A DNA stretch of 64,000 nucleotides from assembly GCF_002900975.1 (NCBI RefSeq), contig NZ_PJON01000001.1:992001-1056000 (forward strand), written 5' to 3'. The stretch is from Tabrizicola aquatica (lineage in GTDB: Bacteria; Pseudomonadota; Alphaproteobacteria; Rhodobacterales; Rhodobacteraceae). Below, one piece after another: positions 48,311-50,485 of this stretch (its first letter is position 1; the number at the start of each line of letters is the position of its first letter). A program made the translations under genes and the position numbers. The notes beneath the pieces were generated by a model. It was given only the letters and a program-made list of their open reading frames with translations, was not told the origin of the DNA and searched no databases.

Positions 48311-49399
48311 GTGGCGCTTGAATTGCAGGCCGTAAGCCGGGTCGTGAAGGGGCAGGTGCATATCCAGCCCACGACCCTGACGCTGGAAAAAGGCACGATG
48401 AACGTGCTTTTGGGACCGACCTCGTCGGGCAAGACCTCGCTGATGCGGCTGATGGCGGGGCTGGATGCACCCACGACCGGGCGGCTGAAATGGCACGGGC
48501 AGGATGTGACCGGGGTCCGGGTGCAGGACCGCAAGGTGGCGATGGTCTACCAGCAGTTCATCAACTATCCGGCCATGTCGGTCTATGACAACATCGCCTC
48601 GCCCCTGCGCCTGATGGGCAAGGACCGGGCCGAGATCGACCGCGCCGTGCGCGCCACGGCCGAGATGCTGAAGCTGACCCCGATGCTGGCCCGCAAGCCG
48701 CTGGAGCTTTCGGGCGGCCAGCAGCAGCGGTGCGCTTTGGCGCGGGCGCTGGTCAAGGACGCAGGCCTGGTCCTGCTGGACGAGCCCCTGGCCAACCTGG
48801 ACTACAAGCTGCGTGAGGAACTCCGCGCCGAAATCCCCCGGATCTTCGAGGAATCGGGCGCGATCTTCGTCTATGCCACGACCGAACCGGAAGAGGCGCT
48901 GCTGCTGGGCGGTAATACCGCCACCTTGTGGGAGGGCCGCGTGACCCAGTTCGGCCCCACGCCCACCGTCTATCGCCAGCCGGCCGACGCCACCACCGCG
49001 CGGGTGTTCAGCGACCCGCCGATGAACTTCGTCTCGTGCTTCAAGGAAGGCCACCGCATGAACTTTGGCGGCACCGCCAATGCCCCGGCCGATGGCGCCT
49101 TTGCCGCCCTGCCCGACGGCCGCTACACCGCCGGGTTCCGCGCGAACCATCTGCATCTGAACACCCATTCCGGCACCGCGGTCGAATTCCGCTGCACCCT
49201 GGGCGTGACCGAGATCACCGGGTCCGAGACCTTCCTGCATCTGACGCATGGCTCCGACCGCTGGGTCGGGCTGGTCCACGGCGTCCACGACCTGACCGCC
49301 GGGGCCGAGGTCAGCGTCTGGCTGGACCCGACCCATGTCTACATCTTCGACGCCGAGGGCCGGCTTGCCGCGCCCGCCGGCTATGCGATGGCGGCCTGA
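48311..49399 (+). CDS. glpS: Glycerol ABC transporter ATPase GlpS (H-loop degenerate)
   Basis: The 362-aa ATPase (UgpC/MalK type with C-terminal TOBE-like domain) has Walker A GPTSSGKT (35-42), signature LSGGQ (133-137) and Walker B LVLLDEPLANLD. The H-loop histidine is lost: ATTE at 189-192 stands in place of VTHD, with Thr191 at the His position. It probably pairs with GlpT. The gene follows glpD by 12 nt and starts with GTG after GGGGAG. Name taken from the Rhizobium glpSTPQUV locus because of identical order. Confidence 0.9.
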   Translation: MALELQAVSRVVKGQVHIQPTTLTLEKGTMNVLLGPTSSGKTSLMRLMAGLDAPTTGRLKWHGQDVTGVRVQDRKVAMVYQQFINYPAMSVYDNIASPLRLMGKDRAEIDRAVRATAEMLKLTPMLARKPLELSGGQQQRCALARALVKDAGLVLLDEPLANLDYKLREELRAEIPRIFEESGAIFVYATTEPEEALLLGGNTATLWEGRVTQFGPTPTVYRQPADATTARVFSDPPMNFVSCFKEGHRMNFGGTANAPADGAFAALPDGRYTAGFRANHLHLNTHSGTAVEFRCTLGVTEITGSETFLHLTHGSDRWVGLVHGVHDLTAGAEVSVWLDPTHVYIFDAEGRLAAPAGYAMAA

Positions 49400-49402
49400 C
49401 CG

Positions 49403-50485
49403 ATGGCACAGATCACCCTCAAGAACCTGGCGCACAGCTACCTGGCCACCCCCAAGGGCGAGCAGGACTACGCGCTGAAGGAAATGGACCATGTCTGGCA
49501 GGACGGCGGGGCCTATGCGCTGCTGGGATCGTCGGGCTGCGGCAAGACCACGCTTCTGAACATCATCTCGGGCCTCTTGAAACCCAGCCAGGGCCGGGTC
49601 CTGTTCGGCGACCGCGACGTGACCGAGGCCGAGACGGCCGAGCGCAACATCGCCCAGGTGTTCCAGTTCCCGGTCGTCTACGACACGATGACCGTGCGCG
49701 ACAACCTGGCCTTTCCCCTGCGGAACCGGGGCAAGGATGCCGCCTATATCGCGCGGCGCGTGGACCAGATCGCCCGGATGATCGGGATGGAGGCAACCCT
49801 TGACCGCAAGGCGCGCGGTCTGACGGCGGATGCCAAGCAGAAGATCAGCCTTGGGCGGGGCATGGTGCGCGAGGACGTGAACGCGATCCTCTTCGACGAA
49901 CCCCTGACCGTGATCGACCCGCACATGAAGTGGGAGTTGCGGACGCAGCTGAAACAGCTGCACCGCGAGTTCGGTCATACGATGATCTACGTCACCCATG
50001 ACCAGACCGAGGCGCTGACCTTCGCCGACAAGGTGGTCGTGATGTATGACGGCCGCGTCGTGCAGATGGGCACGCCGGAGGAATTGTTCGAGACCCCGGC
50101 GCATACCTTCGTCGGCTATTTCATCGGCTCGCCCGGCATGAACCTTCTGCCGGCCGAGATCCGGGGCAGCACCGCGCACCTGCAAGGCGCCGCTGTCCCG
50201 CTGGGTGCGGCCTATGGGCCAATTACGGGCCGCACCCAGATCGGCATCCGCCCGGAATACGCCGTCCTGACCGAGGGCGACGGGCTGCCGATCACCATCC
50301 GCCGGGTCGAGGATGTGGGCCGCCACCGCATCGTCCGGGGCGAGGTCGCGGGCCAGATGGTCAGCGTCATCGCGCCCGAGGGGATGCCCGTCGGCGCCTC
50401 GCTGACCCATGTCCGCTTCACGCCGGACCGCATCAACGTATACGCCGACGACTGGCGCGTCGCACCGGCCGGGGGGGCTGCCTGA
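49403..50485 (+). CDS. glpT: Glycerol ABC transporter ATPase GlpT (signature degenerate)
   Basis: The 360-aa ATPase has Walker A GSSGCGKT (42-49), Walker B AILFDEPLTVID and an intact H-loop (YVTHD, His199). Its signature is LTADA (140-144) instead of LSGGQ. A GlpS/GlpT dimer would thus have one complete site (GlpT Walker motifs and H-loop with the GlpS signature) and one degenerate site. The gene is 3 nt after glpS and its stop overlaps the glpP ATG. Not to be confused with the MFS glycerol-3-phosphate antiporter GlpT of E. coli. Confidence 0.9.
   Translation: MAQITLKNLAHSYLATPKGEQDYALKEMDHVWQDGGAYALLGSSGCGKTTLLNIISGLLKPSQGRVLFGDRDVTEAETAERNIAQVFQFPVVYDTMTVRDNLAFPLRNRGKDAAYIARRVDQIARMIGMEATLDRKARGLTADAKQKISLGRGMVREDVNAILFDEPLTVIDPHMKWELRTQLKQLHREFGHTMIYVTHDQTEALTFADKVVVMYDGRVVQMGTPEELFETPAHTFVGYFIGSPGMNLLPAEIRGSTAHLQGAAVPLGAAYGPITGRTQIGIRPEYAVLTEGDGLPITIRRVEDVGRHRIVRGEVAGQMVSVIAPEGMPVGASLTHVRFTPDRINVYADDWRVAPAGGAA

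Follow-up and report, generated by a model that had tools for sequence, protein, structure and literature searches.

Complementary motif losses in the GlpS and GlpT ATPases predict a single catalytic ATP site in a MalK-type glycerol importer

The window, i.e., the whole stretch of 64,000 nucleotides of Tabrizicola aquatica DNA that was analysed, carries a set of glycerol (glp) genes, of which the two permease genes were named from their position in the operon, and glpV from its position and its homologues in other glp loci. The genes are as follows.

45657..46427, minus strand: divergent gene for a DeoR/GlpR-type regulator; the best NCBIfam match lies below its cut-off and Pfam DeoRC above its own
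46649..48298, plus strand: glpD, glycerol-3-phosphate dehydrogenase
48311..49399, plus strand: glpS, MalK-like ABC ATPase of 362 amino acids with a GTG start; LSGGQ kept, Thr191 in place of the H-loop His
49403..50485, plus strand: glpT, MalK-like ABC ATPase of 360 amino acids; H-loop His kept, LTADA in place of the signature
50485..51357, plus strand: glpP, permease (BPD_transp_1)
51359..52162, plus strand: glpQ, permease (BPD_transp_1)
52116..52568, plus strand: DUF2160 small membrane protein, between glpQ and glpV; the TTG start, as listed, overlaps glpQ
52650..54377, plus strand: glpV, large periplasmic binding protein of 575 residues
54441..55988, plus strand: glpK, glycerol kinase

The real start of the DUF2160 protein probably lies further inside than the listed TTG, and its position suggests that the gene is probably glpU of Rhizobium leguminosarum (PMC7912956). 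At E 0.001, the GlpV sequence matched nothing in Pfam or NCBIfam. By eye, a frame resembling iron-containing alcohol dehydrogenases (window 55091-57124) apparently follows glpK, with the start of the frame inside that gene. The glpSTPQUV set is represented here by glpS, glpT, glpP, glpQ, the small membrane protein and glpV, with glpD and glpK flanking and a GlpR-type regulator. The glycerol ABC transporter described for R. leguminosarum VF39 comprises the same glpSTPQUV genes with glpR, glpD and glpK around them, and the window holds a system of the same kind (PMC7912956, citing Ding et al. 2012). In a Ralstonia strain, a glp cluster made of glpR, D, S, T, P, Q, V and K is described as induced by glycerol (PMC11223650). 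On the basis of the glp operon context and this literature, glycerol is the predicted substrate of the importer in the window.

In Cut1 importers, both ATPase subunits usually come from one gene. The two ATPases encoded here share 31% identity across 270 residues, and both belong to the MalK/UgpC-type family that serves Cut1 importers, since they combine an ABC_tran domain, over the cut-off in each, with a MalK-type C-terminal domain (OB_MalK over the cut-off in GlpT; TOBE_2 just under it in GlpS, at 19.7 of 21 bits). The nearest PDB matches of both were AlgS and MalK-type ATPases, aligned over most of the length, and the best NCBIfam match of both was UgpC (NF008653), which scored 241.8 and 286 bits and thus remained under the curated cut-off of 432 bits. 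Instead of two canonical sites built from one subunit type, however, the sequences show two subunits with complementary motif losses. The motifs that the first-pass annotation had claimed for GlpS and GlpT were all recovered from the window letters, at the following positions (all on the plus strand).

48413..48436: GlpS Walker A, GPTSSGKT, residues 35-42; Walker part of the predicted degenerate site
48707..48721: GlpS signature, LSGGQ, residues 133-137; contributes in trans to the predicted canonical site
48770..48787: GlpS Walker B, VLLDEP, residues 154-159, with the catalytic Glu158
48881..48883: GlpS Thr191 (codon ACC) at the H-loop His position, within VYATTEP, residues 187-193
49439..49441: GlpT Tyr13, the A-loop aromatic
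49526..49549: GlpT Walker A, GSSGCGKT, residues 42-49; Walker part of the predicted canonical site
49820..49834: GlpT degenerate signature, LTADA, residues 140-144, with Asp143 at 49829-49831
49886..49903: GlpT Walker B, ILFDEP, residues 162-167, with the catalytic Glu166
49907..49918: GlpT D-loop, TVID, replacing the usual S-x-L-D
49997..49999: GlpT H-loop His199 (codon CAT), within IYVTHDQ

The D-loop of an ABC subunit acts, within the dimer, in the site of its partner. Each composite site further takes its A-loop, Walker A and B, Q-loop and H-loop from one half and its signature from the other, as summarized in PMC7756269. When the residues of GlpS and GlpT were assigned in this way by sequence position, the site made of the GlpT A-loop, Walker A and B, Q-loop and H-loop together with LSGGQ of GlpS appeared intact throughout, whereas in the site made of the GlpS Walker motifs and the LxAD segment of GlpT, the H-loop His, the aligned A-loop aromatic, the signature and the D-loop were all changed. 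The non-consensus residues of both partners would thus fall in one composite site, leaving the other with consensus residues, which is the arrangement of the degenerate-site class. The proposal of one canonical and one degenerate site in a GlpS-GlpT dimer is supported by the sequences, with four changed features mapping to a single site. Of these four, the A-loop is the softer point because an alignment gap adjoins it: Tyr13 was found in 178 of 179 GlpT rows (the other being a gap) and in GlpS the aligned residue was aromatic in only 1 of 177, while the other ATPases of the tree alignment (A1, A2, B1, B2, considered below, and others) had Tyr or Phe in 54 of 54 rows. It could be that His17 of GlpS, found in 147 of 177, takes the place of the missing aromatic. 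We infer from these sequences that GlpS pairs with GlpT and not with itself, and the assignment of the sites is to be taken in the same sense.

To place these motifs in the family, relatives were collected from contigs of genomes (80 of 595, the best-scoring ones), further genomes and plasmids, and the motifs were read through alignment to the window proteins, each subunit being assigned by overall similarity and not by motif. The control set consisted of other MalK-like ATPases, including some of the T. aquatica genome itself, that scored at least 150 bits against a query. The tally covered the proteins in which both motifs were readable (leaving out 1 of 204 GlpS and 3 of 207 GlpT) and no ATPase that scored below 150 bits to every query; it is to be noted that the own-genome ATPases of the latter kind included L170, L173, L174, L180 and L182, and that L173 reads LSYGH for LSGGQ. 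The 203 readable GlpS sequences (189 distinct) had the signature LSGGQ in 200 and ISGGQ in 3, and at the H-loop position Thr in 196, Ser in 7 and His in none. The 204 readable GlpT sequences (191 distinct) were the opposite: the H-loop His was present in all 204 and LSGG in none, the signature reading LTADA in 94, LTADQ in 33, LTADE in 23, LSADQ in 10, and 18 rarer forms in the rest. Both signature glycines were replaced in 203 of 204 GlpT, the remaining one having kept a single glycine; the Ser was replaced in 185 and kept in 19. Residue 143 was Asp in 202 of 204, the exceptions being LTAGE (Ensifer, L185) and LGAAD (L143). GlpS and GlpT alike retained the Lys of Walker A and the Glu of catalysis wherever these positions were readable. 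Unlike GlpS and GlpT, the control ATPases had an intact signature, [LM]SGG[QE], together with the H-loop His in 59 of 59.

Both subunits were readable in 202 of 205 loci (L012, L064 and L186 having one readable subunit each), and in all 202 the motif states were complementary and the two genes shared a strand, with glpS immediately ahead of glpT. Whether the changes in the H-loop and in the signature always go together was the check proposed in the first-pass annotation, and they did so in all of these loci; no GlpST locus among the 202 combined two subunits with intact H-loop and LSGGQ, and the changes are no peculiarity of this strain, being shared by 189 distinct GlpS and 191 distinct GlpT proteins. 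These distinct-protein counts are the safer ones because some places are represented more than once among the 202 loci (e.g., L001 is the window itself, and L161 and L208 are one locus). The glpT copy of L186, on a plasmid of Rhizobium leguminosarum, is broken into two frames (4992-6068), and glpS as well as long frames matching GlpP, GlpQ and GlpV lie beside it.

Co-occurrence was examined in 398 genomes sampled evenly from the Pseudomonadota, using E <=1.4e-109 for GlpT and E <=3.3e-87 for GlpS. The two genes were found in the same 85 of 398 genomes, and the motifs were read in all 85 pairs. In this sample, GlpT ended at E 1.4e-109, followed by UgpC-like matches at 7e-78 or weaker, and for GlpS the gap extended from 3e-87 to 1e-63. 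No intermediates at the family edge were found among the 398 genomes, and those UgpC-like matches that were read, a part of them, were all intact. Together with the invariable gene order, the shared distribution fits the earlier suggestion that the two subunits form a predicted obligate pair. Shared MalK-type ATPases exist in other bacteria, and intact UgpC-like ATPases are encoded in this genome as well; GlpS and GlpT might form no heterodimer at all, each acting as a homodimer or together with a shared ATPase like MsmX. We regard this as highly improbable in view of their occurrence in the same 85 of 398 genomes, their adjacency in 202 of 202 loci and lesions that are exactly complementary.

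Should a single ATP site suffice, constraint on the other would be relaxed and its motifs could drift, and the altered site would then have no function of its own. The variation at two signature residues of GlpT is in keeping with such neutral decay, residue 141 being T, S, G, A or N and residue 144 highly variable. Other residues of the site are conserved, however. In alignments of 177 GlpS and 179 GlpT, Asp143 was present in 177 of 179 GlpT rows and Lys145 and Gln146 in all 179, and 178 rows had TVID as the D-loop, where other Cut1 ATPases mostly have S-[NA]-L-D; GlpS residue 191 was restricted to Thr or Ser, and Lys41 and Glu158 of its Walker motifs were found in 177 of 177. The codons, on the other hand, did vary (ACC 118, ACA 31, ACG 17, ACT 4 and Ser codons 7 at GlpS residue 191; GAT 97 and GAC 80 at GlpT residue 143), and silent codon change at fixed residues points to selection. 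Free drift over Pseudomonadota and Streptomyces is unlikely to yield such conservation, which makes neutral decay, in our estimate, quite improbable.

The dependence on the H-loop differs among ABC proteins. It is conceivable that both sites hydrolyse ATP, the second in a modified way, such that Thr191 stands in for the His and LxADxKQ serves as an alternative signature, and the conservation of these substitutions and of the GlpS Walker Lys and catalytic Glu would suit this reading. Nonetheless, both signature glycines are lost in nearly every GlpT and the Ser in most, as counted above, and comparable losses in Pdr5 and RbsA are interpreted as a degenerate site (PMC7756269, PMC11466899). We therefore consider hydrolysis at both sites improbable.

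The reading that we prefer, and hold to be very probable on these comparisons, is that the GlpPQ glycerol importer is driven by an obligate heterodimer of GlpS and GlpT in which a single ATP site is catalytic. In this model, hydrolysis at the site of the GlpT Walker motifs and the GlpS signature would power each cycle. The second site, formed by the GlpS Walker motifs and GlpT LxAD, is predicted to bind nucleotide because the GlpS Walker Lys and Glu are kept, but to hydrolyse it slowly or not at all, weak hydrolysis being possible for the same reason; it would hold the dimer together, a role suggested before for degenerate sites in heterodimeric exporters. The cost would be about one ATP per glycerol, and neither GlpS nor GlpT would form a working homodimer.

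Pairs of the GlpST type were also found outside glycerol operons, namely in alphaproteobacteria with small genomes of about 1.0-1.5 Mb (L161, L208-L224, L229), which are probably marine, on an Ensifer plasmid (L185) and on Streptomyces plasmids (L184, L226). Phyla beyond Pseudomonadota were covered through plasmids, two of which carried a Streptomyces locus each. Where readable, these operons had a binding protein, permeases, S and T in that order (in the Ensifer record L195, the binding protein spans the start of the circular record), and their permeases were only 25-35% identical to GlpP and GlpQ. The importer of L161 may take up a sugar, to judge from its neighbours, which encode a glucose/sorbosone dehydrogenase, an NAD-dependent epimerase and a galactokinase-like protein.

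Complementary losses were also seen in a second pair, here called A1 and A2, encoded at 7966-9039 and 12885-13970 of L228, where the Cut1 operon adjoins genes for Dak1 and Dak2 kinases, with relatives in L231-L233. In L228, A1 reads LSGGE with the H-loop His replaced by Pro, and A2 reads LAEGE with the His kept. The A1 pattern (SGGE, His to Pro) was found in 4 of 4 rows, which represent 3 distinct proteins as L225 and L228 are one gene, and all 4 A2 rows showed L[AG]EGE together with the His; both subunits were present in three genomes (L228, L232, L233), and A2 alone was in view in a fourth (L231). The A-loop aromatic is kept in both A1 and A2, and their site is therefore less altered than that of GlpST. 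A third type of pair, B1 and B2, keeps the His in all 26 proteins of its 13 pairs and LSGGE in 13 of 13 B1, and the B2 signature was LSGGD in 8, LAGGD in 3, LSSGD in 1 and LTSGD in 1. Pairing alone thus does not force asymmetry, and the idea that every paired Cut1 ATPase is asymmetric was rejected on the same 13 pairs. One B1/B2 pair belongs to T. aquatica itself (L123, contig C6:113000-124000, at 4226-6305); it reads LSGGE and LSGGD, with both His intact, and adjoins a gene for a fused Dak1-Dak2 kinase (by Pfam), L123 being the one pair of the 13 of which the neighbours were checked. As judged from its motifs, this pair is a natural near-symmetric control. Considered together, the intact ATPases, B1/B2 and the families with full loss look like a graded series.

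An independent origin of the A1/A2 pair was considered and could not be established, since the trees disagree and the AU tests reject no alternative. In a tree of 76 rows, from which the motif columns had been removed, GlpS and GlpT were sisters (93/91, midpoint root) and A1 grouped with the intact B1 of L123 (80/84). When 12 more B1/B2 pairs were represented (82 rows), A1 grouped with GlpS (95/92), GlpT with B1 and B2 (82/91) and A2 with other ATPases (83/82), and GlpS and GlpT were no longer sisters. The AU tests gave p 0.12 for GlpS+A1 and p 0.22 for GlpT+A2 on the 76-row tree, and p 0.33 for GlpT+A2 and p 0.31 for A1+B1 on the 82-row tree. Two origins are accordingly not claimed, and the H-loop-less subunit (GlpS, A1) may have arisen once.

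A wider reading may be offered tentatively, and is rather doubtful when all its parts are taken jointly: there may exist a class of 'one-site' MalK-type importers, in which a non-hydrolytic second site would have been built repeatedly by selection. It would combine an H-loop-less subunit (His to Thr/Ser or Pro) with a partner that has an acidic residue for a signature glycine (LxAD in GlpT, L[AG]EGE in A2). The acid would lie at the point of contact between signature and gamma-phosphate and could set the nucleotide state, ADP-bound or empty, such that one ATP would be spent per small substrate. The B1/B2 pairs, with both His and a variable B2 signature, might then represent an early step in this direction.

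Several exporters have a second, degenerate site as a standard feature, namely TAP (ABCB2/B3), TM287/288, TmrAB, MRP1 and Pdr5 (PMC7756269). In these asymmetric exporters, as in GlpST, both halves are altered in the same composite site, with loss of the signature on one side and changes of the H-loop or other Walker-side elements on the other, and the LNVEQ signature of Pdr5 even shares an acidic residue with GlpT (PMC7756269). They differ in that the exporters often lose the catalytic Glu, which GlpS and GlpT keep, and in that they export, whereas GlpST belongs to a binding-protein-dependent importer with separate MalK-like subunits. Among importers, RbsA and NupO, the fused ATPases of type II importers, have been judged from sequence to have one degenerate ATP site and are like GlpST in this respect; however, their two ATPase domains share a single chain and no Lys is present in the second Walker A (PMC11466899), whereas GlpS and GlpT are separate MalK-like proteins that keep the Walker Lys and the Glu. 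The mycobacterial siderophore importer IrtAB is likewise a heterodimeric importer with asymmetric nucleotide binding, but it has an exporter fold and, in the part of the source available, is contrasted with TM287/288, its own sites not being called degenerate (PMC10246721). A word search of the available text of a comparison of Mycobacterium tuberculosis carbohydrate importers returned neither degenerate, nor H-loop, nor signature motif (PMC8603345). In the titles and abstract openings among the literature matches listed, no such asymmetry was found for GlpS/GlpT or for a MalK-type importer, although this is weak evidence of novelty, subscription journals being mostly outside the search. The first-pass view that such a layout is little described for importers hence holds for the MalK type, for which none was found in the literature searched, but not for importers at large, since the degenerate site of RbsA and NupO has been published (PMC11466899).

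Work on the reasons why some ABC transporters keep a dead ATP site has largely concerned exporters. An importer of the MalK type whose ATPase genes are separable and whose growth phenotype is simple, i.e., the use of glycerol, would offer a direct test of whether one hydrolytic site suffices for import. The GlpST system would also suit the questions of the role of the second site and of the ATP cost per substrate, and a comparison set is already available in the intact ATPases, the B1/B2 pairs with their mild signature change, and the two families with full complementary loss.
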